A stretch of 34,528 bases of DNA, taken from positions 1-34,528 of the forward strand of contig NW_003117699.1 in assembly GCF_000003605.2 (NCBI RefSeq), in the 5' to 3' direction. Every line of letters starts with the position of its first letter. The first letter of the stretch is position 1. Positions 1 to 34,528 of the stretch are shown one piece after another. Below the pieces are notes generated by a model. The model worked only from the letters and a program-made list of their open reading frames with translations. It ran no database searches and had not been told where the DNA came from. The translations under genes were made by a program, and so were the position numbers. The stretch is from Saccoglossus kowalevskii. Taxonomy: Eukaryota > Hemichordata > Enteropneusta > Harrimaniidae.

Positions 1-799
1 TTTAGTAGAAAGACATGGAAATTAGGCTGTTTCAAATCATGAACATTTTCAATTTCTTATTATTTCGGAGAACAAGTTGGTGACGCTGTCGGTACATAGT
101 AGAGTTTGACCAGTTAACTTACCGTGAAAAGTCGTACAAAGTGAACGCAAGGTTGTGCAAAGTGATTGCAAAGTTTGTAGATGTATTTGTATGGTTGACC
201 TAAGTTGTTGGCATATAGAAACCCGCAATTGTAAAGTCAAACAAATGAATAAAAGCGAGATGAAAACAGCCTATATTAGCAGAGTATCACATGAGCTGAC
301 TGACCATAAAGATGATAGAAACAGCATGCAAAGTTGATAAAAGCGTTCAAAACGTTGGCGGAGTTGCATGTATATATAACCTAAGTCATTGGAATGCCAA
401 CCCCGCAGTTAAATTTCGAAAACATTAAGTATATGTCTAGAAAATTCCCGATATGTAAGCAGATTATCGCAACTGCGAACCGAAAATCGAAGACAAAATG
501 CTTACAAAGTTATGAAAAGCGATTGCAAAGTTTGTAGATTCGTTTGGCAATGTTACATATGATATTATATTGACGGCTTCCATAGTCAGAAGTTCGAAAA
601 CGTAAATACATATTTCGCACGTTGTCGTTAAAGTAGCGTACTATCACTCGGAGCATGTAGAGCTCATAGGTCAATTCAAGAAGTTACTTGTACAAAAGCT
701 ATCAAGTTTAAAACAGTTTCAAAAATGAAATAGTCGCTAATTCGAATATATTTCAAATTAAGTAAGCAGTAGTGTAGGTAGGTGAAGAGACAAAGTTTA
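1..799 (+). repeat. Satellite unit U0, partial (left edge)
   Basis: The first 148 bp, including the 5S-like part, lie outside the window. Bases 1-70 lack seven single bases that all other units have, each in a homopolymer. The variant TATGGTTGAC near 191 is otherwise seen only in U31. Confidence 0.95.
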
Positions 800-861
800 A
801 AGTTAAGCTCAATCGGGCATGGTTAGTTCTTGCATGGGAGACTGCCTGAGAAAACCAGCTG
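800..861 (+). pseudogene. 5S rRNA-derived segment, U1
   Basis: T-tract 866-873 (8 T). Has AGCTGCGGA where U2 has AGCTGGGGA. Full description under U2. Confidence 0.85.
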
Positions 862-1753
862 CGGATTTTTTTTGGTTTCATCACATACATATCAAAGATA
901 TGAGACAACGTTCGTGCATCTTTTTTTTCACTGTGATGTTAATCATTTTTAGTAGAAAGACATGGAAATTTAGGCTTGTTTTCAAATTCATGAACATTTG
1001 TCAATTTCCTTATTATTTTCGGAGAACAAGTTGGTGACGCTGTCGGTACATAGTGGAGTTTGACCAGTTAACTTACCGTGAAAAGTCGTACAAAATGAAC
1101 GCAAAGTTGTGCAAAGTGATTACAAAGTTTGTAGATGTATTTGTATGTTTGACCTAAGTTGTTGGCATATAGAAACGCGCAATTGTAAAGTCAAACAAAT
1201 GAATAAAAGCGAGATGAAAACAGCCTATATTAGCAGAGTATCACATGAGCTGACTGACCATAAAGATGATAGAAACAGCATGCAAAGTTGATAAAAGCGT
1301 TCAAAACGTTGGCGGAGTTGCATGTATATATAACCTAAGTCATTGGAATGCCAACCCCGCAGTTAAATTTCGAAAACATTAAGTATATGTCTAGAAAATT
1401 CCCGATATGTAAGCAGATTATCGCAACTGCGAACCGAAAATTGAAGACAAACTGCTTACAAAGTTATGAAAAGCGATTGCAAAGTTTGTAGATTCGTTTG
1501 GCAATGTTACATATGATATTATATTGACGGGTTCCATAGTCAAAAGTTCGAAAACGTAAATACATATTTCGCACATTGCCGTTAAAGTAGCGTACTATCA
1601 CTCGGAGCATGTAGAGGTCATAGGTCGTTTCAAGAAGTTACTTGTACAAAAGCTATTAAGTTTAAAACAGTTTCAAAAATGAAATAGTCGCTAATTCGAG
1701 TATATTTCAAATTACGTAAGCAGTAGTGTGGGTAGGTGAAGAGACAAAGTTTA
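800..1753 (+). repeat. Satellite unit U1 (954 bp)
   Basis: Shares ACAAAATGAACG and GAAACGCGC with U2. The pair GGTCGTTTCAAG (near 1623) plus GCTATTAAG (near 1652) recurs together in U31, about 28 kb away. Confidence 0.97.
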
Positions 1754-1815
1754 AAGTTAAGCTCAATCGGGCATGGTTAGTTCTTGCATGGGAGACTGCC
1801 TGAGAAAACCAGCTG
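1754..1815 (+). pseudogene. 5S rRNA-derived segment with Pol III internal promoter boxes, U2 (reference)
   Basis: Aligns gap-free to human 5S rRNA positions 49-110 with 49 of 62 bases identical. Box A (50-64) keeps 10 of 15 bases (AGTTAAGCTCAATCG), the intermediate element 5 of 6 (GCATGG), box C (80-97) 16 of 18 (TGCATGGGAGACTGCCTG). GGTTAGT and the GAGAAAACC stretch also match. A T-tract at 1820-1827 follows, where Pol III would stop. The 5' half of 5S (1-48) cannot be recognised upstream and the 3' strand of helix I is absent, so this cannot fold as a working 5S rRNA. It is a remnant; in 5S genes this region binds TFIIIA, and whether it still does is unknown. A 5S-derived SINE head is an alternative origin, but the T-tract directly after it fits a decayed gene better. 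Confidence 0.88.
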
Positions 1816-2707
1816 GGGATTTTTTTTGGTTTCATCACATACATATCAAAGATATGAGACAACGTTCGTGCATCTTTTTTTTCACTGTGATGTTAATCAT
1901 TTTTAGTAGAAAGACATGGAAATTTAGGCTTGTTTTCAAATTCATGAACATTTTTCAATTTCCTTATTATTTTCGGAGAACAAGTTGGTGACGCTGTCGG
2001 TACATAGTGGAGTTTGACCAGTTAACTTACCGTGAAAAGTCGTACAAAATGAACGCAAAGTTGTGCAAAGTGATTACAAAGTTTGTAGATGTATTTGTAT
2101 GTTTGACCTAAGTTGTTGGCATATAGAAACGCGCAATTGTAAAGTCAAACAAATGAATAAAAGCGAGATGAAAACAGCCTATATTAGCAGAGTATCACAT
2201 GAGCTGACTGACCATAAAGATGATAGAAACAGCATGCAAAGTTGATAAAAGCGTTCAAAACGTTGGCGGAGTTGCATGTATATATAACCTAAGTCATTGG
2301 AATGCCAACCCCGCAGTTAAATTTCGAAAACATTAAGTATATGTCTAGAAAATTCCCGATATGTAAGCAGATTATCGCAACTGCGAACCGAAAATCGAAG
2401 ACAAACTGCTTACAAAGTTATGAAAAGCGATTGCAAAGTTTGTAGAATCGTTTGGCAATGTTACATATGATATTATATTGACGGGTTCCATAGTCAAAAG
2501 TTCGAAAACGTAAATACATATTTCGCACATTGCCGTTAAAGTAGCGTACTATCACTCGGAGCATGTAGAGGTCATAGGTCAATTCAAGAAGTTACTTGTA
2601 CAAAAGCTATCAAGTTTAAAACAGTTTCAAAAATGAAATAGTCGCTAATTCGAGTATATTTCAATTTACGTAAGCAGTAGTGTGGGTAGGTGAAGAGACA
2701 AAGTTTA
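1754..2707 (+). repeat. Satellite unit U2 (954 bp), reference-like
   Basis: A nearly consensus unit. Landmarks: 5S-like 1754-1815, first T-tract 1820-1827, hairpin 1842-1856, module A 2056, module B 2237, module C 2413. It has the GTAGAATCG variant (near 2442) shared with U3, U23-U27 and U35. Confidence 0.97.
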
Positions 2708-2769
2708 AAGTTAAGCTCAATCGGGCATGGTTAGTTCTTGCATGGGAGACTGCCTGAAAAAACCAGCTG
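2708..2769 (+). pseudogene. 5S rRNA-derived segment, U3
   Basis: T-tract 2774-2782 (9 T). GCCTGAAAAAACC replaces GCCTGAGAAAACC. Confidence 0.85.
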
Positions 2770-2796
2770 GGGATTTTTTTTTGGTTTCATCACATA

Positions 2797-2811
2797 CATA
2801 TCAAAGATATG
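2797..2811 (+). other. Perfect 6-bp hairpin after the 5S-like T-tract (example in U3)
   Basis: CATATC and GATATG are exact inverted repeats around an AAA loop, 14 bp after the first T-tract. Nearly every unit keeps it; in U9 and U35 the loop is AA. Its function is unknown and it may be only a by-product of homogenisation. Confidence 0.6.
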
Positions 2812-2829
2812 AGACAACGTTCGTGCATC

Positions 2830-2837
2830 TTTTTTTT
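2830..2837 (+). other. Second T-tract of the unit (example in U3)
   Basis: A run of eight T about 48 bp after the end of the first one; in other units it ranges from about 5 to 9 T. It could stop RNA polymerase III that reads through the first tract, but no transcription is shown. Confidence 0.4.
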
Positions 2838-2989
2838 CACTGTGATGTTAATCATTTTTAGTAGAAAGACATGGAAATCTAGGCTTGTTTTCAAATTCAT
2901 GAACATTTTTCAATTTCCCAATTTTTTTCGGAGAACAAGTTGGTGACGCTGTCGGCACATAGTGGAGTTTGACCAGTTAACTTACCGTG

Positions 2990-3036
2990 AAAAGTCGTAC
3001 AAAGTGAACGCAAAGTTGTGCAAAGTGATTACAAAG
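2990..3036 (+). other. Phased A-tract cluster (example in U3)
   Basis: AAAG occurs at 2991, 3001, 3012, 3022 and 3033, with steps of 10, 11, 10 and 11 bp. This is the helical repeat of B-DNA, so the short A-tracts face the same side. Shorter series with the same spacing open module B (3193, 3203, then AAAA at 3212) and module C (3369, 3379, 3390). Curvature itself is inferred; tracts of three to four A bend weakly. Confidence 0.6.
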
Positions 3037-3191
3037 TTTGTAGATGTATTTGTATGTTTGACCTAAGTTGTTGGCATATAGAAACCCGCAATTGTAAAGT
3101 CACACAAATGAATAAAAGCGAGATGAAAACAGCCTATATTAGCAGAGTATCACATGAGCTGACTGACCGTAAAGATGATAGAAACAGCATG
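3011..3191 (+). repeat. Internal module A of the satellite unit (about 181 bp, example in U3)
   Basis: The first of three diverged direct repeats inside each unit. It begins CAAAGTTGTGCAAAG and holds ACCTAAGT at 3061, AGCAGA at 3141 and TATCAC at 3148. Over its first 60 bp it matches module B at about 39 columns and module C at about 43, without gaps. Equivalent modules start at about the same offset in every unit (for example 2056 in U2). Confidence 0.75.
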
Positions 3192-3367
3192 CAAAGTTGA
3201 TAAAAGCGTTCAAAACGTTGGCGGAGTTGCATGTATATATAACCTAAGTCATTGGAATGCCAACCCCGCAGTTAAATTTAGAAAACATTAAGTATATGTC
3301 TAGAAAATTCCCGATATGTAAGCAGATTATCGCAACTGCGAACCGAAAATCGAAGACAAAATGCTTA
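3192..3367 (+). repeat. Internal module B (about 176 bp, example in U3)
   Basis: Begins CAAAGTTGATAAAAGCG. ACCTAAGT lies at 3242, the same offset (51) as in module A, followed in both by TTGG and a CCCGCA element one base apart in offset. AGCAGATTATC at 3321 matches AGCAGAGTATC of module A within one base of offset. Confidence 0.75.
3217..3264 (+). other. TATA-like stretch framed by a short inverted repeat (example in U3)
   Basis: GTTGGC at 3217 and GCCAAC at 3259 are exact inverted repeats; between them lies TATATATA at 3234-3241. The arrangement is in almost all full-length units, and in U28 and U29 the deletion removes the right arm. It looks like a core promoter but lies about 430 bp before the next 5S-like segment, so a role there is unlikely. 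Confidence 0.35.
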
Positions 3368-3541
3368 CAAAGTTATGAAAAGCGATTGCAAAGTTTGTAG
3401 AATCGTTTGGCAATGTTACATATGATATTATATTGACGGGTTCCATAGTGAAAAGTTCGAAAATGTAAATACATATTTCGCACATTGCCGTTAAAGTAGC
3501 GTACTATCACTCGGAGCATGTAGAGGTCATAGGTCAATTCA
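3368..3541 (+). repeat. Internal module C (about 174 bp, example in U3)
   Basis: Begins CAAAGTTATGAAAAGCG and runs into GATTGCAAAGTTTGTAGA, which closely matches the head of module A. TATCAC at 3505 lies at offset 138, exactly as in module A. TTCGAAAA, followed by TAA and TAT motifs, also recalls module B. Confidence 0.75.
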
Positions 3542-3600
3542 AGAAGTTACTTGTACAAAAGCTATCAAGTTTGAACAGTTTCAAAAATGAATAGTCGCTA
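3542..3600 (+). repeat. Partial internal module D (example in U3)
   Basis: GAAGTTACTTGTACAAAAGC followed by TATCAAGTTT resembles the head of module C (AAGTTATGAAAAGCGATT then GCAAAGTTT) with about a 4-bp insertion. The likeness fades after about 50 bp. The spacing from module C (174 bp between the AAGTT motifs) fits the series, but short length makes this the least certain module. Confidence 0.45.
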
Positions 3601-3660
3601 ATTCGAGAGTATTTGAAATTACGTAAGCAGTAGTGTGGGTAGGTGAAGAGACCAAGTTTA

Positions 3661-3722
3661 AAGTTAAACTCAATCGGGCATGGTTAGTTCTTGCATGGGA
3701 GACTGCCTGAGAAAACCACCTG
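3661..3722 (+). pseudogene. 5S rRNA-derived segment, U4
   Basis: T-tract broken by an A (3727-3731, then ATTT). Box A reads TTAAACTC; CCACCTGG is private. Confidence 0.85.
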
Positions 3723-4615
3723 GGGATTTTTATTTGGTTTCATCACATACATATCAAAGATATGAGACAACGTTCGTGCATCTTTTTTTTCACTGTGGTG
3801 TTAATCATTTTTAGTAGAAAGACATGGAAATCTAGGCTTGTTTTCAAATTCATGAACATTTTTCAATTTCCTTATTATTTTCGGAGAACAAGTTGGTGAC
3901 GCTGTCGGTACATAGTGGAGTTTGACCAGTTAACTTACCGTGAAAAGTCGTACAAAGTGAACGCAAAGTTGTGCAAAGTGATTACAAAGTTCGTAGATGT
4001 ATTTGTATGTTTGATCTAAGTTGTTGGCATATAGAAACCCGCAATTGTAAAGTCAAACAAATGAATAACAGCGAGATGAAAACAGCCTATATTAGCAGAG
4101 TATCACATGAGCTGACTGACCATAAAGATGATAGAAACAGCATGCAAAGTTGATAAAAGCGTTCAAAACGTTGGCGGAGTTTCATGTATATATAACCTAA
4201 GTCATTGGAATGCCAACCCCGCAGTTAAATTTCGAAAACATTAAGTATATGTCTAGAAAATTCCCGATATGTAAGCAGATTATCGCAACTGCGAACCGAA
4301 AATCGAAGACAAACTGCTTACAAAGTTATGAAAAGCGATTGCAAAGTTTGTAGATTCGTTTGGCAATGTTACATATGATATTATATTGACGGGTTCCATA
4401 GTCAAAAGTTCGAAAACGTAAATACATATTTCGCACATTGCCGTTAAAGTAGCGTACTATCACTCGGAGCATGTAGAGGTCATAGGTCAATTCAAGAAGT
4501 TACTTGTACAAAAGCTATCAAGTTTAAAACAGTTTCAAAAATGAAAAAGTCGCTAATTCGAGGATATTTCAAATTACGTAAGCAGTAGTGTGGGTAGGTG
4601 AAGAGACCAAGTTTA
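3661..4615 (+). repeat. Satellite unit U4 (955 bp)
   Basis: The T-tract after the 5S-like segment is interrupted (five T, an A, three T), unlike all other units. GATCTAAG near 4013 is shared only with U33. GAGACCAAG near its right end belongs to the variant block found at the right ends of U3-U8. Confidence 0.97.
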
Positions 4616-4677
4616 AAGTTAAACTCAATCGGGCATGGTTAGTTCTTGCATGGGAGACTGCCTGAGAAAACCAGCTG
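4616..4677 (+). pseudogene. 5S rRNA-derived segment, U5
   Basis: T-tract 4682-4691 (10 T). TTAAACTC form of box A. Confidence 0.85.
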
Positions 4678-5570
4678 GGGATTTTTTTTTTGGTTTCATC
4701 ACATACATATCAAAGATATGAGACAACGTTCGTGCATCTTTTTTTTCACTGTGATGTTAATCATTTTTAGTAGAAAGACATGGAAATCTAGGCTTGTTTT
4801 CAAATTCATGAACATTTTTCAATTTCCTTATTATTTTCGGAGAACAAGTTGGTGACGCTGTCGGCACATAGTGGAGTTTGACCAGTTAACTTACCGTGAA
4901 AAGTCGTACAAAGTGAACGCAAAGTTGTGCAAAGTGATTACAAAGTTTGTAGATGTATTTGTATGTTTGACCTAAGTTGTTGGCATATAGAAACCCGCAA
5001 TTGTAAAGTCACCCAAATGAATAAAAGCGAGATGAAAACAGCCTATATTAGCAGAGTATCACATGAGCTGACTGACCATAAAGATGAGAGAAACAGCATG
5101 CAAAGTTGATAAAAGCGTTCAAAACGTTGGCGGAGTTGCATGTATATATAACCTAAGTCATTGGAATGCCAACCCCGCAGTTAAATTTCGAAAACATTAA
5201 GTATATGTCTAGAAAATTCCCGATATGTAAGCAGATTATCGCAACTGCGAACCGAAAATCGAAGACAAACTGCTTACAAAGTTATGAAAAGCGATTGCAA
5301 AGTTTGTAGATTCGTTTGGCAATGTTACATATGATATTATATGACGGGTTCCATAGTCAAAAGTTCGAAAACGTAAATACATATTTCGCACATTGCCGTT
5401 AAAGTAGCGTACTATCACTCGGAGCATGTAGAGGTCATAGGTCAATTCAAGAAGTTACTTGTACAAAAGCTATCAAGTTTAAAACAGATTCAAAAATGAA
5501 ATAGTCGCTAATTCGAGTATATTTCAAATTACGTAAGCAGTAGTGTGGGTAGGTGAAGAGACCAAGTTTA
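4616..5570 (+). repeat. Satellite unit U5 (955 bp)
   Basis: Has a 10-T tract after the 5S-like segment, TCACCCAAATG near 5009 shared with U6, GATGAGAG near 5085, and a 2-bp loss in the TATATTGACGG stretch near 5341. Confidence 0.97.
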
Positions 5571-5632
5571 AAGTTAAACTCAATCGGGCATGGTTAGTTC
5601 TTGCATGGGAGACTGCCTGCGAAAACCAGCTC
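5571..5632 (+). pseudogene. 5S rRNA-derived segment, U6
   Basis: T-tract 5637-5644 (8 T). TTAAACTC; CTGCGAAAACC and AGCTCGGG. Confidence 0.85.
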
Positions 5633-6522
5633 GGGATTTTTTTTGGTTTCATCACATACATATCAAAGATATGAGACAACGTTCGTGCATCTTTTTTCAC
5701 TGTGATGTTAATCATTTTTAGTAGAAAGACATGGAAATTTAGGCTTGTTTTCAAATTCATGAACATTTTTCAATTTCCTTATTATTTTCGGAGAACAAGT
5801 TGGTAACGCTGTCGGTACATAGTGGAGTTTGACCAGTTAACTTACCGTGAAAAGTCGTACAAAGTGAACGCAAAGTTGTGCAAAGTGATTACAAAGTTTG
5901 TAGATGTATTTGTATGTTTGACCTAAGTTGTTGGCATATAGAAACCCTCAATTGTAAAGTCACCCAAATGAATAAAAGCGAGATGAAAACAGCCTATATT
6001 AGCAGAGTATCACATGAGCTGACTGACCATAAAGATGATAGAAACAGCATGCAAAGTTGATAAAAGCGTTCAAAACGTTGGCGGAGTTGCATGTATATAT
6101 AACCTAAGTCATTGGAATGCCAACCCCGCAGTTAAATTTCGAAAACATTAAGTATATGTCTAGAAAATTCCCGATATGTAAGCAGATTATCGCAACTGCG
6201 AACCGAAAATCGAAGACAAACTGCTTACAAAGTTATGAAAAGCGATTGCAAAGTTTGTAGATTCGTTTGGCAATGTTACATATGATATTATATTGACGGG
6301 TTCCATAGTCAAAAGTTCGAAAACGTAAATACATATTTCGCACATTGCCGTTAAAGTAGCGTACTATCACTCGGAGCATGTAGAGGTCATAGGTCAATTC
6401 AAGAAGTTGCTTGTACAAAAGCTATCAAGTTTAAAACAGATTCAAAAATGAAATAGTCGCTAATTCGAGTATATTTCAAATTACGTAAGGAGTACTGTGG
6501 GTAGGTGAAGAGTCCAAGTTTA
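5571..6522 (+). repeat. Satellite unit U6 (952 bp)
   Basis: First of four units (U6-U9) with CTGCGAAAACC and AGCTCGGGA in the 5S-like region. TTGGTAACGC near 5801 replaces the usual TTGGTGACGC. AAACCCTCAATT near 5943 is private. Confidence 0.97.
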
Positions 6523-6584
6523 AAGTTAAACTCAATCGGGCATGGTTAGTTCTTGCATGGGAGACTGCCTGCGAAAACCAGCTC
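6523..6584 (+). pseudogene. 5S rRNA-derived segment, U7
   Basis: T-tract 6589-6596 (8 T). Same alleles as U6. Confidence 0.85.
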
Positions 6585-7475
6585 GGGATTTTTTTTGGTT
6601 TCATCACATACATATCAAAGATATGAGACAACGTTCGTGCATCTTTTTTTCACTGTGATGTTAATCATTTTTAGTAGAAAGACATGGAAATTTAGGCTTG
6701 TTTTCAAATTCATGAACATTTTTCAATTTCCTTATTATTTTCGGAGAACAAGTTGGTAACTCTGTCGGTACATAGTGGAGTTTGACCAGTTAACTTACCG
6801 TGAAAAGTCGTACAAAGTGAACGCAAAGTTGTGCAAAGTGATTACAAAGTTTGTAGATGTATTTGTATGTTTGACCTAAGTTGCTGGCATATAGAAACCC
6901 GCAATTGTAAAGTCACACAAATGAATAAAAGCGAGATGAAAACAGCCTATATTAGCAGAGTATCACATGAGCTAACTGACCATAAAGATGATAGAAACAG
7001 CATGCAAAGTTGATAAAAGCGTTCAAAACGTTGGCGGAGTTGCATGTATATATAACCTAAGTCATTGGAATGCCAACCCCGCAGTTAAATTTCGAAAACA
7101 TTAAGTATATGTCTAGAAAATTCCCGATATGTAAGCAGATTATCGCAACTGCGAACCGAAAATCGAAGACAAACTGCTTACAAAGTTATGAAAAACGATT
7201 GCAAAGTTTGTAGATTCGTTTGGCAATGTTACATATGATATTATATTGACGGGTTCCATAGTCAAAAGTTCGAAAACGTAAATACATATTTCGCACATTG
7301 CCGTTAAAGTAGCGTACTATCACTCGGAGCATGTAGAGGTCATAGGTCAATTCAAGAAGTTACTTGTACAAAAGCTATCAAGTTTAAAACAGTTTCAAAA
7401 ATGAAATAGTCGCTAATTCGAGTATATTTCAAATTACGTAAGCAGTAGTGTGGGTAGGTGAAGAGACCAAGTTTA
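6523..7475 (+). repeat. Satellite unit U7 (953 bp)
   Basis: Shares TTGCTGGCAT, GAGCTAACTG and GAAAAACGA with U8 only, so U7 and U8 are near sisters. TTGGTAACTC near 6753 is private. Confidence 0.97.
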
Positions 7476-7537
7476 AAGTTAAACTCAATCGGGCATGGTT
7501 AGTTCTTGCATGGGAGACTGCCTGCGAAAACCAGCTC
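7476..7537 (+). pseudogene. 5S rRNA-derived segment, U8
   Basis: T-tract 7542-7549 (8 T). Same alleles as U6. Confidence 0.85.
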
Positions 7538-8428
7538 GGGATTTTTTTTGGTTTCATCACATACATATCAAAGATATGAGACAACGTTCGTGCATCTTTT
7601 TTTCACTGTGATGTTAATCATTTTTAGTAGAAAGACATGGAAATTTAGGCTTGTTTTCAAATTCATGAACATTTTTCAATTTCCTTATTATTTTCGGAGA
7701 ACAAGTTTGTAACGCTGTCGGTACATAGTGGAGTTTGACCAGTTAACTTACCGTGAAAAGTCGTACAAAGTGAACGCAAAGTTGTGCAAAGTGATTACAA
7801 AGTTTGTAGATGTATTTGTATGTTTGACCTAAGTTGCTGGCATATAGAAACCCGCAATTGTAAAGTCACACAAATGAATAAAAGCGAGATGAAAACAGCC
7901 TATATTAGCAGAGTATCACATGAGCTAACTGACCATAAAGATGATAGAAACAGCATGCAAAGTTGATAAAAGCGTTCAAAACGTTGGCGGAGTTGCATGT
8001 ATATATAACCTAAGTCATTGGAATGCCAACCCCGCAGTTAAATTTCGAAAACATTAAGTATATGTCTAGAAAATTCCCGATATGTAAGCAGATTATCGCA
8101 ACTGCGAACCGAAAATCGAAGACAAACTGCTTACAAAGTTATGAAAAACGAATGCAAAGTTTGTAGATTCGTTTGGCAATGTTACATATGATATTATATT
8201 GACGGGTTCCATAGTCAAAAGTTCGAAAACGTAAATACATATTTCGCACATTGCCGTTAAAGTAGCGTACTATCACTCGGAGCATGTAGAGGTCATAGGT
8301 CAATTCAAGAAGTTACTTGTACAAAAGCTATCAAGTTTAAAACAGTTTCAAAAATGAAATAGTCGCTAATTCGAGTATATTTCAAATTACGTAAGCAGTA
8401 GTGTGGGTAGGTGAAGAGACCAAGTTTA
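7476..8428 (+). repeat. Satellite unit U8 (953 bp)
   Basis: Sister of U7 by the shared variants named there. GTTTGTAACGC near 7705 and GAAAAACGAATGC near 8142 are private changes. Confidence 0.97.
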
Positions 8429-8490
8429 AAGTTAAACTCAATCGGGCATGGTTAGTTCTTGCATGGGAGACTGCCTGCGAAAACCAGCTC
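8429..8490 (+). pseudogene. 5S rRNA-derived segment, U9
   Basis: T-tract 8495-8502 (8 T). Same alleles as U6; last of the AGCTCGGG group. Confidence 0.85.
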
Positions 8491-9379
8491 GGGATTTTTT
8501 TTGGTTTCATCACATACATATCAAGATATGAGACAACGTTCGTGCATCTTTTTTTTCACTGTGATGTTAATCATTTTTAGTAGAAAGACATGGAAATCTA
8601 GGCTTGTTTTCAAATCATGAACATTTTTCAATTCCCAATTATTTTCGGAGAACAAGTTGGTGACGCTGTCGGCACATAGTGGAGTTTGACCAGTTAACTT
8701 ACCGTGAAAAGTCGTACAAAGTGAACGCAAAGTTGTGTAAAGTGATTACAAAGTTTGTAGATGTATTTGTATGTTTGACCTAAGTTGTTGGCATATAGAA
8801 ACCCGCAATTGTAAAGTCACTCAAATGAATAAAAGGGAGATGAAAACAGCCTATATTAGCAGAGTATCACATGAGCTGACTGACCATAAAGATGAGAGAA
8901 ACAGCATGCAAAGTTGATAAAAGCGTTCAAAACGTTGGCGGAGTTGCATGTATATATAACCTAAGTCATTGGAATGCCAACCCCGCAGTTAAATTTCGAA
9001 AACATTAAGTATATGTCTAGAAAATTCCCGATATGTAAGCAGATTATCGTAACTGCGAACCGAAAATCGAAGACAAACTGCTTACAAAGTTATGAAAAGC
9101 GATTGCAAAGTTTGTAGATTCGTTTGGCAATGTTACATATGATATTATATTGACGGGTTCCATAGTCAAAAGTTCGAAAACGTAAATACATATTTCGCAC
9201 ATTGCCGTTAAAGTAGCGTACTATCACTCGGAGCATGTAGAGGTCATAGGTCAATTCAAGAAGTTACTTGTACAAAAGCTATCAAGTTTAAAACAGTTTC
9301 AAAAATGAAATAGTCGCTAATTCAAGTATATTTCAAATTACGTAAGCAGTAGTGTGGGTAGGTAAAGAAACAAAGTTTA
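8429..9379 (+). repeat. Satellite unit U9 (951 bp)
   Basis: Three one-base losses between 8521 and 8635. GTGTAAAG near 8736 puts a stop at the head of the common short open frame. AAAAGGGAG near 8830 is private; ATCGTAACTG near 9046 is shared with U11. Confidence 0.97.
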
Positions 9380-9441
9380 AAGTTAAACTCAATCGGGCAT
9401 GGTTAGTTCTTGCATGTTAGACTGCCTGAGAAAACCAGCTG
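9380..9441 (+). pseudogene. 5S rRNA-derived segment, U10
   Basis: T-tract 9446-9453 (8 T). Box C changed to GCATGTTAGACTG. Confidence 0.85.
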
Positions 9442-24630: not shown

Positions 24631-24692
24631 AAGTTAAGCTCAATCGGGCATGGTTAGTTCTTGCATGGGAGACTGCCTGAGAAAACCAGCTG
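24631..24692 (+). pseudogene. 5S rRNA-derived segment, U26
   Basis: T-tract 24697-24705 (9 T). As U24. Confidence 0.85.
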
Positions 24693-25582: not shown

Positions 25583-25644
25583 AAGTTAAGCTCAATCGGG
25601 CATGGTTAGTTCTTGCATGGGAGACTGCCTGAGAAAACCAGCTG
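25583..25644 (+). pseudogene. 5S rRNA-derived segment, U27
   Basis: T-tract 25649-25657 (9 T). As U24. Confidence 0.85.
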
Positions 25645-26536
25645 GAGATTTTTTTTTGGTTTCATCACATACATATCAAAGATATGAGACAATGTTCGTG
25701 CATCTTTTTTTCTCTGTGATATTAATCATTTTTAGTAGAAAGACATGGAAATTTAGGCTTGTTTTCAAATTCATGAACATTTTTCAATTTCCCTATTATT
25801 TTCGGAGAACAAGTTGGTGACGCTGTCGGCACATAGTGGAGTTTGACCTGTTAACTTACCTTGAAAAGTCGAACAAAGTGAACGCAAAGTTGTGCAGAGT
25901 GACTACAAAGTTTGTAGATGTATTTGTATGTTTGACCTAAGTTGTTGGCATATAGAAACCCGCAATTGTAAAGTCAAACAAATGAATAAAAGCGAGATGA
26001 AAACAGCCTATATAAGCAGAGTATCACATGAGCTGACTGACCGTAAAGATGATAGAAGCAGCATGCAAAGTTGATAAAAGCGTTCAAAACGTTGGCGGAG
26101 TTGCATGTATATATAACCTAAGTCATTGGAATGCCAACCCCGCAGTTAAATTTCGAAAACATTGAGTATATGTGTAGAAAATTCCCGATATGTAAGCAGA
26201 TTATCGCAACTGCGAACCGAAAATCGAAGACAAAATGCTTACAAAGTTATGAAAAGCGATTGCAAAGTTTGTAGAATCGTTTGGCAATGTTACATATGAT
26301 ATTATTTTGACGGATTCCATAGTCAAAAGTTCGAAAACGTAAATACACATTTCGCACATTGCCGTTAAAGTAACGTACTATCACTCGAAGCATGTAGAGG
26401 ACATAGGTCAATTCAAGAAGTTACTTGTACAAAAGCTATCAAGTTTAAAACAGTTTCAAAGATGAAATAGTCGCTAATTCGAGTATATTTCCAATTACGT
26501 AAGCTGTAGTGTGGGTAGTTGAAGAGACAAAGTTTA
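25583..26536 (+). repeat. Satellite unit U27 (954 bp)
   Basis: Last of the U23-U27 block. Private changes: ACCTTGAAAAGTCGAAC near 25858, ATGTGTAGAAA near 26170, GAGGACATAGG near 26397 and AAGCTGTAG near 26502. Confidence 0.97.
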
Positions 26537-26598
26537 AAGTTAAGCTCAATCGGGCATGGTTAGTTCTTGCATGGGAGACTGCCTGAGAAAACCAGCTG
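26537..26598 (+). pseudogene. 5S rRNA-derived segment, U28
   Basis: T-tract 26603-26609 (7 T). Returns to the AGCTGGGGA allele of U2. Confidence 0.85.
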
Positions 26599-27200
26599 GG
26601 GATTTTTTTGGTTTCATCACATACATATCAAAGATATGAGAAAACGTTCGTGCATCTTTTTCTTCACTGTGATGATAATCATTTTTAGTAGAAAGACATG
26701 GAAATTTAGGCTTGTTTTCAAATTCTTGAACATTTTTCAATTTCCCTATTATTTTCGGAGAACAAGTTGGTGACGCTGTCGGCACATATTGGAGTTTGAC
26801 TGTTAACTTACCGTGAAAACTCGTACAAAGTGAACGCAAAGTTGTGCAAAGTGATTACAAAGTTTGTAGATGTATTTGTAAGTTTGACCTAAGTTGTTGG
26901 CATATAGAAACCCGCAAATGTAAAGTCAAACAAATGAATAAAAGCGAAATGAAAACAGCCTATATTAGCAGAGTATCACATGAGCTGACTGACCATAAAG
27001 ATGATAGAAACAGCATGCAAAGTTGATAAAAGCGTTCAAAACGTTGGCGGAGTTGCATGTATATATAACCTAAGTCATTGGAAGTTACTTGTACAAAAGC
27101 TATTAAGTTTAAAACAGTTTCAAAAATGAAATAGTCGCTAATTCGAGTATATTTCAAATTACGTAAGCAGTAGTGTGGGTAGGTGAAGAGACAAAGTTTA
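26537..27200 (+). repeat. Satellite unit U28, deletion form (664 bp)
   Basis: A 288-bp internal deletion joins CATTGGAA of module B to GTTACTTG at the start of partial module D, at about 27081-27083. GAA is present on both sides of the lost segment in full units, so a 3-bp microhomology marks the join. The left part has private changes (GTAAGTTTG, CGCAAATG, GCGAAATG) not in U29. Confidence 0.97.
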
Positions 27201-27262
27201 AAGTTAAGCTCAATCGAGCATGGTTAGTTCTTGCATGGGAGACTGCCTGAGAAAACCAGCTG
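27201..27262 (+). pseudogene. 5S rRNA-derived segment, U29
   Basis: T-tract 27267-27274 (8 T). AATCGAGCATGG changes the base triplet between box A and the intermediate element. Confidence 0.85.
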
Positions 27263-27865
27263 AGGATTTTTTTTAGGTTTCATCACATACATATCAAAGA
27301 TATGAGACAACGTTCGTGCATCTTTTTTCACTGTGATGTTAATCATTTTTAGTAGAAAGACATGGAAATTTAGGCTTGTTTTCAAATTCATGAACATTTT
27401 TCAATTTCCTTATTATTTTCGGAGAACAAGTTGGTGACGCTGTCGGTACATAGTGGAGTTTGACCAGTTAACTTACCGTGAAAAGTCGTACAAAGTGAAC
27501 GCAAAGTTGTGCAAAGTGATTACAAAGTTTGTAGATGTATTTGTATGTTTGACCTAAGTTGTTGGCATATAGAAACCCGCAATTGTAAAGTCAAACAAAT
27601 GAATAAAAGCGAGATGAAAACAGCCTATATTAGCAGAGTATCACATGAGCTGACTGACCATAAAGATGATAGAAACAGCATGCAAAGTTGATAAAAGCGT
27701 TCAAAACGTTGGCGGAGTTGCATGTATATATAACCTAAGTCATTGGAAGTTACTTGTACAAAAGCTATTAAGTTTAAAACAGTTTCAAAAATGAAATAGT
27801 CGCTAATTCGAGTATATTTCAAATTACGTAAGCAGTAGTGTGGGTAGGTGAAGAGACAAAGTTTA
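27201..27865 (+). repeat. Satellite unit U29, deletion form (665 bp)
   Basis: Same 288-bp deletion and same join as U28, at about 27746-27748. The first about 140 bp right of the join differs from U28 by one base (AATCGAGC against AATCGGGC), yet the left parts differ at several sites. Confidence 0.97.
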
Positions 27866-27927
27866 AAGTTAAGCTCAATCGGGCATGGTTAGTTCTTGCA
27901 TGGGAGACTGCCTGAGAAAACCAGCTG
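27866..27927 (+). pseudogene. 5S rRNA-derived segment, U30
   Basis: T-tract 27932-27939 (8 T). Same as U2. Confidence 0.85.
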
Positions 27928-28816
27928 GGGATTTTTTTTGGTTTCATCACATACATATCAAAGATATGAGACAACGTTCGTGCATCTTTTTTTTCACTGT
28001 GATGTTAATCATTTTTAGTAGAAAGACATGGAAATCTAGGCTTGTTTTCAAATTCATGAACATTTTTCAATTTCCCTATTATTTTCGGAGAACAAGTTGG
28101 TGACGCTGTCGGCACATAGTGGAGTTTGACCAGTTAACTTACCGTGAAAAGTCGTACAAAGTGAACGCAAAGTTGTGCAATGTGATTACAAAGTTTGTAG
28201 ATGTATTTGTATGTTTGACCTAAGTTGTTGGCATATAGAAACCCGCAATTGTAAAGTCAAACAAATGAATAAAAGCGAGATGAAAACAGCCTATATTAGA
28301 AGAGTATCACATGAGCTGACTGACCATAAAGATGATAGAAACAGCATGCAAAGTTGATAAAAGCGTTCAAAACGTTGGCGGAGTTGCATGTATATATAAC
28401 CTAAGTCATTGGAATGCCAACCCCGCAGTTAAATTTCGAAAACATTAAGTATATGTCTAGAAAATTCCCGATATGTAAGCAGATTATCGCAACCGCGAAC
28501 CGAAAATCGAGACAAACTGCTTACAAGTTATGAAAGCGATTGCAAAGTTTGTAGATTCGTTTGGCAATGTTACATATGATATTATATTGACGGGTTCCAT
28601 AGTCAAAAGTTCGATAACGTAAATACATATTTCGCACATTGCCGTTAAAGTAGCGTACTATCACTCGGAGAATGTAGAGGTCATAGGTCAATTCAAGAAG
28701 TTACTTGTACAAAAGCTATCAAGTTTAAAACAGTTTCAAAAATGAAATAGTCGCTAATTCGAGTATATTTCAAATTACGTAAGCAGTAGTGTGGGTAGGT
28801 AAAGAGACAAAGTTTA
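27866..28816 (+). repeat. Satellite unit U30 (951 bp)
   Basis: Full-length form resumes. Three one-base losses between 28508 and 28536. TGCAATGTGATT is shared with U18; GAGAATGTAG near 28668 is private. Confidence 0.97.
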
Positions 28817-28878
28817 AAGTTAAACTCAATCGGACATGGTTAGTTCTTGCATGGGAGACTGCCTGAGAAAACCAGCTG
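28817..28878 (+). pseudogene. 5S rRNA-derived segment, U31
   Basis: T-tract 28883-28890 (8 T). TTAAACTC allele; ATCGGACATGG is private. Confidence 0.85.
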
Positions 28879-29759
28879 GGGATTTTTTTTGGTTTCATCA
28901 CATACATATCAAAGATATGAGACAACGTTCATGCATTTTTTTTCACTGTGATGTTAATCATTTTTAGTAGAAAGACATGGAAATTTAGGCTTGTTTTCAA
29001 ATTCATGAACATTATTCAATTTCCTTATTATTTTCGGAGAACAAGTTGGTGACGCTGTAGTGGAGTTTGACCAGTTAACTTACCGTGAAAAGTCGTACAA
29101 AGTGAACGCAAAGTTGTGCAAAGTGATTACAAAGTTTGTAGATGTATTTGTATGGTTGACCTAAGTTGTTGGCATATAGATACCCGCAATTGCAAAGTCA
29201 AACAAATGAATAAAAGCGAGATGAAAACAGCCTATATTAGCAGAGTATCACATGAGCTGACTGACCATAAAGATGATAGAAACAGCATGCAAAGTTGATA
29301 AAAGCGTTCAAAACGTTGGCGGAGTTGCATGTATATATAACCTAAGTCATTGGAATGCCAATCCCGCAGTTAAATTTCGAAAACATTAAGTATATTTATA
29401 GAAAATTCCCGATATGTAAGCAGATTATCGCAACCGCGAACCGAAAATGGAAGACAAACTGCTTACAAAGTTATGAAAAGCGATTGCAAAGTTTGTAGAT
29501 TCGTTTGGCAATGTTACATATGATATTATATTGGCGGGTTCCATAGTCAAAAGTTCGAAAACGTAAATACATATTTCGCACATTGCCGTTAAGTAGCGTA
29601 CTATCACTCGGAGCATGTAGAGGTCATAGGTCGTTTCAAGAAGTTACTTGTACAAAAGCTATTAAGTTTAAAACAGTTTCAAAAATGAAATAGTCGCTAA
29701 TTCGAGTATATTTCAAATTACGTAAGCAGTAGTGTGGGTAGGTGAAGAGACAAAGTTTA
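28817..29759 (+). repeat. Satellite unit U31 (943 bp, small deletion)
   Basis: Lacks 8 bp (CGGTACAT) in the GACGCTGT-AGTGGAG stretch near 29058. Carries TATGGTTGAC (as U0) and GGTCGTTTCAAG (as U1). TTGGCGGGTTCC is shared with U21. Confidence 0.97.
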
Positions 29760-29821
29760 AAGTTAAGCTCAATCGTGCATGGTTAGTTCTTGCATGGGAG
29801 ACTGCCTGAGAAAACCAGCTG
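29760..29821 (+). pseudogene. 5S rRNA-derived segment, U32
   Basis: T-tract 29826-29833 (8 T), then AGG. ATCGTGCATGG is private. Confidence 0.85.
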
Positions 29822-30714
29822 GGGATTTTTTTTAGGTTTCATCACATACATATCAAAGATATGAGACAACGTTCGTGCATCTTTTTTTTCACTGTGATGT
29901 TAATCATTTTTAGTAGAAAGACATGGAAATCTAGGCTTGTTTTCAAATTCATGAACATTTTTCAATTTCCCTATTATTTTCGGAGAACAAGTTGGTGACG
30001 CTGTCGGTACATAGTGGAGTTTGACCAGTTAACTTACCGTGAAAAGTCGTACAAAGTGAACGCAAAGTTGTGCAAAGTGATTACAAAGTTTGTAGATGTA
30101 TTTGTATGTTTGACCTAAGTTGTTGGCATATAGAAACCCGCAATTGTAAAGTCAAACAAATGAATAAAAGCGAGATGAAAACAGCCTATATTAGCAGAGT
30201 ATCACATGAGCTGACTGACCATAAAGATGAGGGAAACAGCATGCAAAGTTGATAAAAGCGTTCAAAACGTTGGCGGAGTTGCATGTATATATAACCTAAG
30301 TCATTGGAATGCCAACCCCGCAGTTAAATTTCAAAAACATTAAGTATATGTCTAGAAAATTCCCGATATGTAAGCAAATTATCGCAACTGCGAACCGAAA
30401 ATCGAAGACAAACTGCTTACAAAGTTATGAAAAGCGATTGCAAAGTTTGTAGATTCGTTTGGCAATGTTACATATGATATTATATTGACGGGTTCCATAG
30501 TCAAAAGTTCGAAAACGTAAATACATATTTCGCACATTGCCGTTAAAGTAGCGTACTATCACTCGGAGCATGTAGAGGTCATAGGTCAATTCAAGAAGTT
30601 ACTTGTACAAAAGCTATCAAGTTTAAAACAGTTTCAAAAATGAAATAGTCGCTAATTCGAGTATATTTCAAATTACGTAAGCAGTAGTGTGGGTAGGTAA
30701 AGAGACAAAGTTTA
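29760..30714 (+). repeat. Satellite unit U32 (955 bp)
   Basis: Close to consensus. Private changes: AATCGTGCATGG near 29771 in the 5S-like segment, GATGAGGGAAAC near 30227 and GCAAATTATCG near 30375. Confidence 0.97.
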
Positions 30715-30776
30715 AAGTTAAACTCAATCGGGCATGGTTAGTTCTTGCATTGGAGACTGCCTGAGAAAACCAGCTG
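30715..30776 (+). pseudogene. 5S rRNA-derived segment, U33
   Basis: T-tract 30781-30790 (10 T). Box C has GCATTGGAGAC. Confidence 0.85.
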
Positions 30777-31670
30777 GGGATTTTTTTTTTGGTTTCATCA
30801 CATACATATCAAAGATATGAGACAACGTTCATGCATCTTTTTTTTCACTGTGATGTTAATCATTTTTAGTAGAAAGACATGGAAATTTAGGCTTGTTTTC
30901 AAATTCATGAACATTTTTCAATTTCCTTATTATTTTCGGAGAACAAGTTGGTGACGCTGTCGGTACATAGTGGAGTTTGACCAGTTAACTTACCGTGAAA
31001 AGTCGTACAAAGTGAACGCAAAGTTGTGCAAAGTGATTACAAAGTTTGTAGATGTATTTGTATGTTTGATCTAAGTTGTTGGCATATAGAAACCCGCAAT
31101 TGTAAAGTCAAACAAATGAATAAAAGCGAGACGACAACAGCCTATATTAGCAGTGTATCACATGAGCTGACTGACCATGAAGATCATAGAAACAGCATGC
31201 AAAGTTGATAAAAGCGTTCAAAACGTTGGCGGAGTTGCATGTATATATAACCTAAGTCATTGGAATGCCAACCCCGCAGTTAAATTTCGAAAACATTAAG
31301 TATATGTCTAGAAAATTCCCGATATGTAAGCAGATTATCGCAACTGCGAACCGAAAATCGAAGACAAACTGCTCACAAAGTTATGAAAAGCGATTGCAAA
31401 GTTTGTAGATTCGTTTGGCAATGTTACATATGATATTATATTGACGGGTTCCATAGTCAAAAGTTCGAAAACGTAAATACATATTTCGCACATTGCCGTT
31501 AAAGTAGCGTACTATCACTCGGAGCATGTAGAGGTCAAAGGTCAATTCAAGAAGTTACTTGTACAAAAGCTATCAAGTTTAAAACAGTTTCAAAAATGAA
31601 ATAGTCGCTAATTCGAGTATATTTCAAATTACGTAAGCAGTAGTGTGGGTAGGTGAAGAGACAAAGTTTA
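30715..31670 (+). repeat. Satellite unit U33 (956 bp)
   Basis: 10-T tract. Box C has GCATTGGAGAC. GAGACGACAAC, CATGAAGATCATAG and GCTCACAAAG are private; AGCAGTGTATC and GGTCAAAGGTC tie it to U17 and U16. Confidence 0.97.
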
Positions 31671-31732
31671 AAGTTAAGCTCAATCGGGCATGGTTAGTTC
31701 TTGCATGGGAGACTGCCTGAGAAAACCAGCTG
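31671..31732 (+). pseudogene. 5S rRNA-derived segment, U34
   Basis: T-tract 31737-31744 (8 T). Same as U2. Confidence 0.85.
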
Positions 31733-32624
31733 GGGATTTTTTTTGGTTTCATCACATACATATCAAAGATATGAGACAACGTTCGTGCATCTTTTTTTTC
31801 ACTGTGATGTTAATCATTTTTAGTAGAAAGACATGGAAATCTAGACTTGTTTTCAAATTCATGAACATTTTTCAATTTCCCTATTATTTTCGGAGGACAA
31901 GATGGTGACGCTGTCGGCACATAGTGGAGTTTGACCAGTTAACTTACCGTGAAAAGTCGTACAAAGTGAACGCAAAGTTGTGCAAAGTGATTACAAAGTT
32001 TGTAGATGTATTTGTATGTTTGACCTAAGTTGTTGGCATATAGAAACCCGCAATTGTAAAGTCAAACAAATGAATAAAAGCGAGATGAAAACAGCCTATA
32101 TTAGCAGAGTATCACATGAGCTGACTGACCATAAAGATGATAGAAATAGCATGCAAAGTTGATAAAAGCGTTCAAAACGTTGGCGGAGTTGCATGTATAT
32201 ATAACCTAAGTCATTGGAATGCCAACCCCGCAGTTAAATTTCGAAAACATTAAGTATATGTCTAGAAAATTCCCGATATGTAAGCAGATTATCGCAACTG
32301 CGAACCGAAAATCGAAGACAAACTGCTTACAAAGTTATGAAAAGCGATTGCAAAGTTTGTAGATTCGTTTGGCAATGTTACATATGATATTATATTGACG
32401 GGTTCCATAGTCAAAAGTTCGAAAACGTAAATACATATTTCGCACATTGCCGTTAAAGTAGCGTACTATCACTCGGAGCATGTAGAGGTCATAGGTCAAT
32501 TCAAGAATTTACTTGTACAAAAGCTATCAAGTTTAAAACAGTTTCAAATATGAAATAGTCGTTAATTCGAGTATATTTCCAATTACGTAAGCAGTAGTGT
32601 GGGTAGGTGAAGAGACAAAGTTTA
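31671..32624 (+). repeat. Satellite unit U34 (954 bp)
   Basis: GGAGGACAAGATGG near 31892 ties it to U17. CTAGACTTG near 31851 is private. The right end has CAAATATG and GTCGTTAATTCG, as at the end of U11. Confidence 0.97.
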
Positions 32625-32686
32625 AAGTTAAACTCAATCGGGCATGGTTAGTTCTTGCATGGGAGACTGCCTGAGAAAACCAGCTG
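32625..32686 (+). pseudogene. 5S rRNA-derived segment, U35
   Basis: T-tract 32691-32697 (7 T), then AGG. TTAAACTC and AGCTGAGGA alleles, as U11. Confidence 0.85.
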
Positions 32687-33575
32687 AGGATTTTTTTAGG
32701 TTTCATCACATACATATCAAGATATGAGACACGTTCGTGCATCTATTTTTCACTGTGATGTAATCATTTTAGTAGAAAGACATGGAAATTTAGGCTCGTT
32801 TTCAAATTCATGAACATTTTTCAATTTCCCTATTATTTTCGGAGAACAAGGTGGTGACGCTGTCGGCACATAGTGGAGTTTGACCAGTTAACTTACCGTG
32901 AAAAGTCGTACAAAGTGAACGCAAAGTTGTGCAAAGTGATTACAAAGTTTGTAGATGTATTTGTATGTTTGACCTAAGTTGTTGGCATATAGAAACCCGC
33001 AATTGTAAAGTCAAACAAATGAATAAAAGCGAGATGAAAACAGCATATATTAGCAGAGTATCACATGAGCTGACTGACCGTTAAGATGATAGAAGCAGCA
33101 TGCAAAGTTGATAAAAGCGTTCAAAACGTTGGCGGAGTTGCATGTATATATAACCTAAGTCATTGGAATGCCAACCCCGCAGTTAAATTTCGAAAACATT
33201 GAGTATATGTCTAGAAAATTCCCGATATGTAAGCAGATTATCGCAACTGCGAACCGAAAATCGAAGACAAAATGCTTACAAAGTTATGAAAAGCGATTGC
33301 AAAGTTTGTAGAATCGTTTGGAAATGTTACATATGATATTATATTGGCGGGTTACATAGTCAAAAGTTCGAAAACGTAAATACATATTTCGCACATTGCC
33401 GATGAAGTAGCGTACTATCACTCGGAGCATGTGGAGGTCATAGGTCAATGCAAGAAGTTACTTTTACAAAAGCTATCAAGTTTAAAACAGTTTCAAAGAT
33501 GAAATAGTCGCTAATTCGAGAATATATTTCCAATTACGTAAGCAGTAGTGTGGGTAGTTGAAGAGACAAAGTTTA
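32625..33575 (+). repeat. Satellite unit U35 (951 bp)
   Basis: Four one-base losses between 32715 and 32772. From module A rightwards it carries the U23-U27 variants (GATAGAAGCAGC, CATTGAGTAT, AAAATGCTTAC, GTAGAATCG, TTTCAAAGATG, GTAGTTGAAG) with further private changes. GACCGTTAAG gives a stop in the common short frame. Confidence 0.97.
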
Positions 33576-33638
33576 AAGTTAAGCTCAATCGGGCATGGTT
33601 AGTTCTTGCATGGGGAGACTGCCTGAAAAAAACAGCCG
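33576..33638 (+). pseudogene. 5S rRNA-derived segment, U36
   Basis: T-tract 33643-33652 (10 T). One G inserted in box C (ATGGGGAGAC), and the stretch after it has drifted to AACAGCCGGGTA. The most decayed copy. Confidence 0.8.
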
Positions 33639-34528
33639 GGTATTTTTTTTTTGATTTCATCACTTACATATCAAAGATATGAGACAACGTTCGTGCATCT
33701 TTTTTTCACTGTGATGTAAATTATTTTTAGTAGAAAGAAAATGGAAATTTAGGCTTGTTTCCAAATTCATGAACATTTTTCCAATTTCCCTATTATTTTC
33801 GGAGATCAAGTTGGTGACGCTGTCGGCACATAGTGGGGTTTGACCTGTTAAGTTACCGTGAAAAGTCGTACAAAGTGAACGCAAAGTTGTGCAAAGTGAT
33901 CACAAAGTTTGTAGATGTATTTGTATGTTTGCCCTAAGTTGTTGGCATATAGAAACCCGCAATTGTAAAGTCAAACAAATGAATAAAAGCGAGATGAAAA
34001 CAGCCTATATTAACAGAGTATCACATGAGCTGACTGACCGTAAAGATGATAGAAACAGCATACAAAGTTGATAAAAGCGTTCAAAACGTTGGCGGAGTTG
34101 CATGTATATATAACCTAAGTCATTGCAATGCCAACCCCGCAGTTAAATTTCGAAAACATTAAGCATATGTCTAGAAAATTCCCGATATGTAAGCAGATTA
34201 TCGCCACTGCGAACCGAAAATCGAAGACAAACTGCTTACAAAGTTATAAAAAGCGATTGCAAAGTTTTTAGATTCGTTTGGCAATGTTACATATGATATT
34301 ATATTGACGGGTTCCATAGTCAAAAGTTCGAAAACGAAAGTACATATTTCGCACATTGCCGTTAAAGTAGCGTACTATCAGTCGGAGCATGTATAGGTCA
34401 TAGGTCAATTCAAGAAGTCACTTGTACAAACGCTATCAAGTTTAAAACAGTTTCAAAAATGAAATAGCCGCCAGTTCGAGTATATTTCAAATTACGTAAG
34501 CAAGAGTGTGGGTAGTTGAAGAGACAAA
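33576..34528 (+). repeat. Satellite unit U36, most diverged, cut by the right edge
   Basis: Has the most private changes of any unit, more than 20 seen by eye, for example CATGGGGAGAC, AACAGCCGGGTA, GATTTCATCACTTAC, GTGGGGTTTG, TTTGCCCTAAG, CATACAAAG, CATTGCAATGCC and TAGCCGCCAG. The window stops about 5 bp before the next unit would start. Confidence 0.95.

Follow-up and report, generated by a model that had tools for sequence, protein, structure and literature searches.

A 953-bp tandem satellite of Saccoglossus kowalevskii carries a 5S rRNA promoter fragment in almost every unit

RESULTS

A satellite array with a 5S-like segment in its units

The window, that is, the whole stretch of DNA analysed (34,528 nucleotides), is a single head-to-tail satellite array of 37 units with a 953-bp consensus, in which 36 units carry a 62-bp segment resembling 5S rRNA followed by a T tract of 5–10 bases, and the 37th ends before the segment. 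The segment descends from this genome's own kind of 5S, and the satellite forms tandem arrays on several contigs. The explanation we hold, with modest confidence, to be the probable one is a long-lived satellite that captured a 5S promoter fragment, which would have been spread by satellite turnover and would be mostly a passenger.

When a single unit was aligned to the window with BLASTN, its + strand matches tiled the whole length (1–34528), leaving no gap longer than 2 bases. The 36 unit anchors (818, 1772, 2726 ... 33594) are spaced 943–956 bp apart, with the exception of two shorter units. A differently set regular expression had earlier returned 27 cores only; the later count gave 36. 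The features of the array and of one unit are as follows.

1–34528, + strand: the tandem array of 37 units (about 953 bp each), which takes up contig C1108 completely (BLASTN tiling, unit cuts, alignment)
26555–27883, + strand: two adjoining units, 664 and 666 bp long, both lacking the same 285 bp (BLASTN tiling, alignment)
1754–1815, + strand: 5S-like segment, example copy (5S 49–110); the remaining 35 are found some 18 bases ahead of their unit anchors
2044–2224, + strand: monomer M1, about 178 bp (consensus 148–328)
2225–2400, + strand: monomer M2 (consensus 329–504; contains 412–443)
2401–2578, + strand: monomer M3 (consensus 505–682)
2579–2996, + strand: 418-bp block with 5S-like segment and T tract, without detected M1–M3 homology
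2708–2769, + strand: 5S-like segment one unit further on (consensus 812–873)
2774–2782, + strand: T tract lying 3' of that segment, a candidate Pol III terminator

Much of the unit consists of three diverged monomers of about 178 bp. We also considered the 5S segment as a ~62-bp insertion into a fourth monomer but abandoned this, the 418-bp block having shown no monomer homology. The T run most often measures eight (16 units) or nine bases (11 units), and its distance from the core is 17 bases in 35 units and 16 in one.

C1108 is a whole contig of an assembly of 572,110,611 bases in 4830 contigs. The satellite also makes up all of C3509, all of C1579 except a 207-bp insert, both 3-kb ends of C3309 and those parts of C275, C859, C869 and C880 that were read, and no array flanks were found in any of these. 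No tRNA was found in the window, which holds two open reading frames of at least 80 aa (bacterial code). The unit has an observed/expected CpG ratio of 1.09, and 2 kb of C203 that is mostly satellite relic gave 1.00; such values near 1 are unlike those of vertebrates.

The segment matches the species' own 5S gene

The family consensus aligned without gaps to human 5S rRNA 49–110 at 49 of 62 bases. The Smith-Waterman score of 59 compares with a highest score of 25 after shuffling the unit 1000 times and of 26 after shuffling the 5S as often. These results reproduce the earlier note's description of 36 segments, one per unit, each with this ungapped match and then a T tract. That note made its 5S assignment depend on a match to a covariance model or to the species' own gene. 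With the model the outcome was weak: Rfam gave no matches at gathering in the whole window, RF00001 did not match a 3-kb piece of it at E ≤ 10, and only an 82-bp trim (window 1754–1835) scored, at 24.3 bits (E 0.0016; 5'-truncated, model 50–120), below the gathering score of 38. The genome's own 5S genes score 105–113 bits (47 genes scored). The comparison with the species' own gene was clear: the search covered two 5S loci, and the unit matched the gene at 49 of 58 bases (E 2.4e-13). Both also have TTGCATGGGAGAC (C82) in common, which is absent from seven reference 5S sequences.

A functional 5S gene in the unit was ruled out, since there is no full-length 5S above the gathering score and the predicted RNA folds like shuffled sequence (z 0.12). 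Weak Rfam matches to snoZ196 and RAGATH-35 (E 5–7) were regarded as chance.

Copies and families across the genome

Copies collected from the genome with a 111-bp probe form families and copies of graded identity (93%, 76% and 73–75%), families A and C being 76% alike. Allowing up to three mismatches, the 5S core pattern occurs 5438 times, including 1226 exact gene-type cores, and a conserved non-5S stretch of the unit (the M2 pattern) 3878 times, with 0 matches for the backwards controls. Judged by these counts, the genome of 572 Mb would contain some 3,900 units. From the similar totals we infer that the fragment goes together with the unit throughout the genome. A rough subtraction of the totals leaves about 334 of the 5438 cores beyond satellite units and exact gene cores. 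With a first M2 pattern (1564 matches versus 5438 cores) thousands of cores had seemed to lie outside the satellite, a view given up once the better-conserved M2 pattern gave 3878.

Ten bases are common to families A, B and C and absent from the gene (C59, A60, A61, T77, T92, C94, A98, A102, G107 and C108), although C94 and G107 are human 5S bases and may be old states. Given these shared altered bases, the fragment was probably captured once, long ago.

Segment edges and 5S spacers favour capture over decay

The homology has sharp edges. Flanks beyond 5S 49–106 are at the level of shuffled sequence (5S 1–48, p 0.98; 107 to the end, p 0.59), so that only 49–106/110 of the ~120-bp 5S span is present. 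The spacers of the 1139-bp 5S repeat of C3485 and of the first repeat of C2212 (1333 bp), the ~1579-bp repeat being left out, showed no homology to the unit (best match 23 bp, E 0.21). A second satellite in the genome consists of whole 5S genes in ~216-bp units, and its spacer gave chance matches only (best non-5S match E 0.22).

The earlier note had left open decay of a 5S rDNA repeat or capture of a fragment. The match to the genome's own 5S, the sharp edges and the lack of homology to the spacers compared (1139- and 1333-bp repeats) together favour capture over decay; under the rule that the note had set, the spacer result points the same way. If decay were the origin, a whole 5S gene would have come first and would have eroded at the 3' end and over the 5' half, with the promoter part outlasting both. 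We give this a small chance, for which the 216-bp satellite of whole 5S genes provides some grounds: A61 is its majority base (28/29) and so in common with the unit, with T77 in 4/29 and T92 in 3/29. The spacer comparison, covering the 1139- and 1333-bp repeats and not the ~1579-bp type, also leaves room for it. Against it stand those spacers, the chance-level matches of the 216-bp spacer and the abrupt edges. The note's further claim, loss of the 5' half, found no upstream 5S trace in the consensus of families A, B and C or in copies D and E2 (p 0.81–0.98), but a slight hint in one old relic copy, C594:169001–169110, which aligns with gaps to 5S 24–106 and may retain 5S 24–45 (p 0.042, 1 of 6 copies tested).

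Conservation of the promoter elements

We take box A to lie at consensus 813–827, the IE at 830–835 and box C at 843–860 (boundaries as in the 5S literature). The retained part of 5S covers all three, and the earlier note's term 'internal-promoter remnant' is apt. Order and spacing are those of a Pol III type 1 promoter. Ungapped comparison of family A with the own gene gave 12/15 bases in box A, 5/6 in the IE and 16/18 in box C; box A is weak in family C (8/15).

In one reading the unit is a working cassette, in which TFIIIA would bind the IE and box C of each unit and Pol III would start upstream and stop at the T tract; a short RNA or the bound factor would then sustain the satellite through transcription, heterochromatin or centromere function. 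We consider this unlikely. It is consistent with retention of the promoter part while the remainder of 5S is gone, and with the T run of 5–10 bases after 36 of 36 cores. Among 160 units with the full segment, the stretch from IE to box C (5S 66–97) has 0.7% non-majority bases versus 2.4% overall, a value at the 3rd percentile among windows (by pi, the 6th); on its own, box C lies at the 12th–17th percentile and box A at the 70th–75th. Identity over the same stretch is 100% between families A and B and 94% (30/32) between A and C, and windows as conserved make up 2.2% for B and C jointly and 2–12% for the B, C and D comparisons. The 5S-like satellite PcP190 has RNA-seq evidence of transcription in the part of PMC11675491 drawn on here.

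Other comparisons stand against a working cassette. For E alone, 34% of windows are as conserved as 5S 66–97, and in C, D and E together the stretch ranks in the top 10%, with four non-5S windows (starts 412, 513, 371 and 208) more conserved; the best of these 32-bp windows, 412–443, lies inside M2. Within the window the segment varies at least as much as the remainder (pi 0.038 versus 0.027 elsewhere; 36 units), and the 33-bp core is ordinary, 33% of windows having as few variable sites. Box A is weak in family C, the 418-bp block consensus contains six runs of at least four T, and two relic copies on C594 have a box C with a lost base or an insertion (by-eye reading). Conservation of IE to box C is above average yet exceeded by other stretches, with damaged box C in relics, and selection for the fragment is not established. 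That the ~3,900 units are minimal TFIIIA/Pol III cassettes (IE, box C, terminator), kept while other captured 5S was lost, seems to us distinctly unlikely. Were it so, the satellite as a whole would offer TFIIIA a field of binding sites or would yield non-coding RNAs of ~115 nt, coexisting with a second satellite of whole 5S genes.

A mobile-element origin, with the fragment as the head of a 5S-derived SINE (SINE3) or of a TRIM such as Ajax that later became tandem, is very unlikely. Precedents exist in the sections of PMC10886601 cited, where the LTR of nemertean Ajax carries box A, IE and box C only and the heads of SINE3 in Lepidoptera are divergent 5' of the promoter. However, the leftover cores are few (the ~334 of the rough subtraction) and could be explained by variants of the 216-bp satellite, and a T8 directly after the segment would stop a SINE transcript early. 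A phage, plasmid or prokaryotic origin was ruled out: core patterns were unmatched in collections of viral and genome contigs (which possibly omit records of this genome), phages and plasmids gave only short chance matches, and the DNA belongs to a 572-Mb assembly and has no tRNA and two open reading frames of at least 80 aa.

DISCUSSION

The fragment is most likely an old passenger promoter piece. According to the preferred explanation, a long-lived satellite of three diverged ~178-bp monomers and a 418-bp block would have captured the promoter-bearing fragment (5S 49–106/110) within the latter, in what was probably a single event that preceded the split of families A–C. The donor would be a 5S gene or the 216-bp 5S satellite. 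The fragment would then have been copied along with the unit by satellite turnover (unequal exchange or similar), reaching ~3,900 units mostly as a passenger. With IE and box C fairly well kept and a T run behind them, the fragment might weakly bind TFIIIA or be transcribed by Pol III. Several observations count against passenger capture, namely the coincidence of the kept segment with the promoter, the near-constant distance of the T tract, the low variability of IE to box C and the hint in one relic of 5S further 5'.

Satellites derived from 5S rDNA are already known, and a centromeric satellite of Hoplias and a B-chromosome satellite of Plantago lagopus are both said to have arisen in this way. 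In the portions of PMC11675491 and PMC4201667 available, PcP190 of hyloid frogs is a tandem satellite of ~190 bp with a 120-bp 5S-like region. The satellite described here is likewise a long tandem array and shares with PcP190 a 5S-like region (~70% alike to 5S) and a place on contigs apart from the 5S genes. It differs in holding 62 bp of 5S in a 953-bp unit with other monomers: on these accounts PcP190 holds a whole 5S-like region, and here a promoter-only piece sits inside a higher-order satellite unit. The closer parallel to PcP190, as so described, is the 216-bp family of the same genome. The families and copies of graded age, together with that whole-5S satellite, make it directly testable whether a Pol III promoter, once captured, aids satellite persistence.

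Other known elements share the promoter segment. The Ajax TRIM retrotransposon similarly keeps only the part of 5S from box A to box C, and its folded RNA is unlike 5S, as the extract of PMC10886601 has it; Ajax is a dispersed LTR element and the present repeat is a satellite. The SINE3 elements HaSE3 and PxSE4/5 have a 5S-derived promoter segment with boxes A, IE and C and, unlike the satellite, are interspersed and have LINE-related 3' ends in the parts of PMC3272025 and PMC8010984 used; the latter tabulates four 5S SINEs of 294–389 bp. The 5S arrays of Tribolium freemani with satellite spacers also combine 5S and satellite DNA in one array; in the excerpt of PMC11202950 their 5S genes are mostly whole, whereas here the array carries a promoter fragment only.

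Organization of the array and of its unit

The window, one whole contig (C1108; here C denotes contigs of the assembly and L loci fetched from them), comprises 34,528 bases of an assembly of 572.1 Mb in 4830 contigs and is a single tandem array on the + strand, with 37 units, a 953-bp consensus and an average pairwise difference of 3.0% with indels included. The 5S-like segment is present in 36 of the 37 units, the last ending before its position, and is followed by a run of 5–10 T in 36/36 copies. The earlier note had reported 36 such copies, each with a T tract behind it, and 49/62 identity to human 5S rRNA positions 49–110 for one unit; the unit consensus gives the same identity to the human sequence. 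Part of the unit consists of three monomers, mutually homologous at z 12.6–14.0 relative to shuffles:

Consensus 148–328, monomer M1, about 178 bp
Consensus 329–504, monomer M2, about 178 bp
Consensus 505–682, monomer M3, about 178 bp

No homology to M1–M3 was detectable in the remaining 418 bp, which include the 5S segment. Two adjoining units share a 285-bp deletion (window 26555–27883), and one unit of contig C3509, near 60144, lacks the same ~285 bp (consensus about 407–692).

Relationship of the segment to 5S genes

TFIIIA binds box A, IE and box C of 5S, and Pol III halts at runs of T; by the 5S box boundaries, the segment spans all three boxes. Aligned to 5S it scored 59, where shuffles of the unit and of 5S reached at most 25 and 26. 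In the covariance-model check proposed in the earlier note, Rfam searches of the whole window and of a 3-kb piece did not detect 5S, and RF00001 matched the trimmed segment only, at 24.3 bits (E 0.0016), below the gathering score. With RF00001, true 5S genes of the genome score 105–113 bits, each over model positions 1–120 (47 of 18,217 first-look candidates scored), and lie in long repeats:

C3485 (L001), true 5S repeats of ~1126–1139 bp
C2212 (L003) and C3801, true 5S repeats of mostly ~1579 bp, C2212 beginning with a 1333-bp repeat

Past the array on C3485, 18,302 of 20,000 bases read N (C3485:28001–48000, L057–L058), as either a gap or withheld sequence.

The BLASTN comparison with the species' own 5S bore out the relationship, the unit matching the gene without gaps at 49/58 positions over 49–106 (51/62 over 49–110). 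Both carry TTGCATGGGAGAC, which is absent from a panel of seven other 5S sequences. Ungapped identity to the gene is 13/16 at 49–64, 14/16 at 65–80, 15/17 at 81–97 and 7/9 at 98–106, and 16/48 at 1–48, 2/4 at 107–110 and 2/9 at 111–119. The earlier note had left a choice between a decayed 5S rDNA repeat and a satellite with a captured fragment. Capture is most likely, judged from sequence: the flanks 1–48 and 107–end gave p 0.98 and 0.59 in gapped tests against shuffles, and the best match of the unit to the spacers in L001 and L003 (C2212:1–1960, covering the initial 1333-bp repeat rather than one of 1579 bp) was 23 bp (E 0.21). Decay is disfavoured save for one of six copies tested, C594:169001–169110 (L066:1–110), where a possible 5S match extends out to position 24 (p 0.042). 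If this extension is real, the captured piece would originally have been longer and later decayed. This relic copy lies about 80 bases past a run of N.

Extent and families of the satellite

A 111-bp probe found copies of 98–100% identity on C1108, C3309, C3509 and C1579 (40 of 1787 candidates scored). C3509 is satellite along its full length, as is C1579 apart from a 207-bp insert, and the 3 kb examined at either end of C3309 is satellite. The insert (C1579:31269–31475, L054) lies within one unit, shows no match to it, contains repeated CACTGGGTTT-like words and may be a small mobile element.

Genome pattern counts, allowing ≤3 mismatches, gave 3488+1950 matches for the 5S core, 1164+400 for a first M2 pattern and 2615+1263 for a better conserved one; backwards controls gave 0 for four patterns. 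The exact gene-type 5S core, with 710+516 matches, falls inside the 5S core total because three mismatches separate gene-type and satellite cores. The totals for fragment (5438−1226 = 4212) and unit (3878) are thus alike, and the two are adjacent in the contigs read. The satellite therefore comprises roughly 3,900 units, or about 3.7 Mb and 0.65% of the assembly.

The window's family, A, has two subgroups with 30 differing consensus sites (114 units). Family B (consensus of 5 units, C880 and C275; C859 partly read) is 93% identical to A, family C (5 units, C869) 76%, and diverged copies D (C203) and E (C594) 75% and 73.5%. Ten segment bases are common to A, B and C and absent from the own gene, two of which, C94 and G107, match human 5S; this sharing points to a single capture predating the split of the three families. 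At 5S position 77, families A–C have T and, as read by eye, the D and E copies retain the gene's A.

A second, 216-bp satellite of 5S genes

C576 (L063, C576:4001–7000) and C111 (L064, C111:1–2500) carry tandem units of ~216 bp, also 118 and ~334 bp, the ~216-bp unit being a 5S gene plus a ~97-bp spacer. Its genes are 84.0–93.5% identical to the true gene (29 matched stretches). Among the matches listed for C576, none links its spacer to the long-repeat spacers, except that one of them runs on for 12 bases beyond the gene. The spacing among the first 100 exact gene-type cores suggests the same satellite on C404, C588 and C627. The segment of the 953-bp unit matches the 216-bp satellite consensus at 52/62 positions versus 51/62 for the true gene, and shares A61 with the former, values by which the 216-bp satellite as donor and as sister are indistinguishable.

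Conservation of the promoter fragment

The fragment is a real, old 5S promoter piece within a higher-order satellite, and is probably a passenger in it; the interesting reading is a putative promoter activity. The parts of the open literature consulted describe 5S-derived satellites (PcP190 and others) and SINEs and TRIMs with 5S heads; a satellite with a promoter-only 5S fragment was not found in those parts, and prior publication is possible. Predicted transcript folding was no better than that of shuffles (z 0.12), whereas human 5S does fold better (z −2.15).

Among the 36 window units, the 62-bp segment lies at the 88th percentile of variability and its 33-bp core is unremarkable, with as few variable sites in 33% of windows; in 114 units a 33-bp core lies at the 4th percentile. 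In a wider set that adds C3509, C1579 and the two ends of C3309 to the window units (165 matches, 160 with the full segment), 49–110 lies at the 77th percentile and 66–97, from IE to box C, at the 3rd by non-majority bases and at the 6th by pi. Between families, the proportion of 32-bp windows conserved at least as well as 66–97 is 12% for A–B, 7.6% for A–C, 2.9% for B–C, 2.2% for B and C jointly, 10% for C+D+E and 7.6% for all four, and 11% for D and 34% for E alone. For C+D+E, the top windows start at 412, 513, 371 and 208, none within 5S, and the 5S window (824) ranks fifth. In the wider sets the 5S core is therefore better conserved than average, but not uniquely. Of the 32-bp windows compared for C+D+E, the best conserved, ahead of the 5S core, is an M2 stretch at consensus 412–443 (for example, window 2308–2339).
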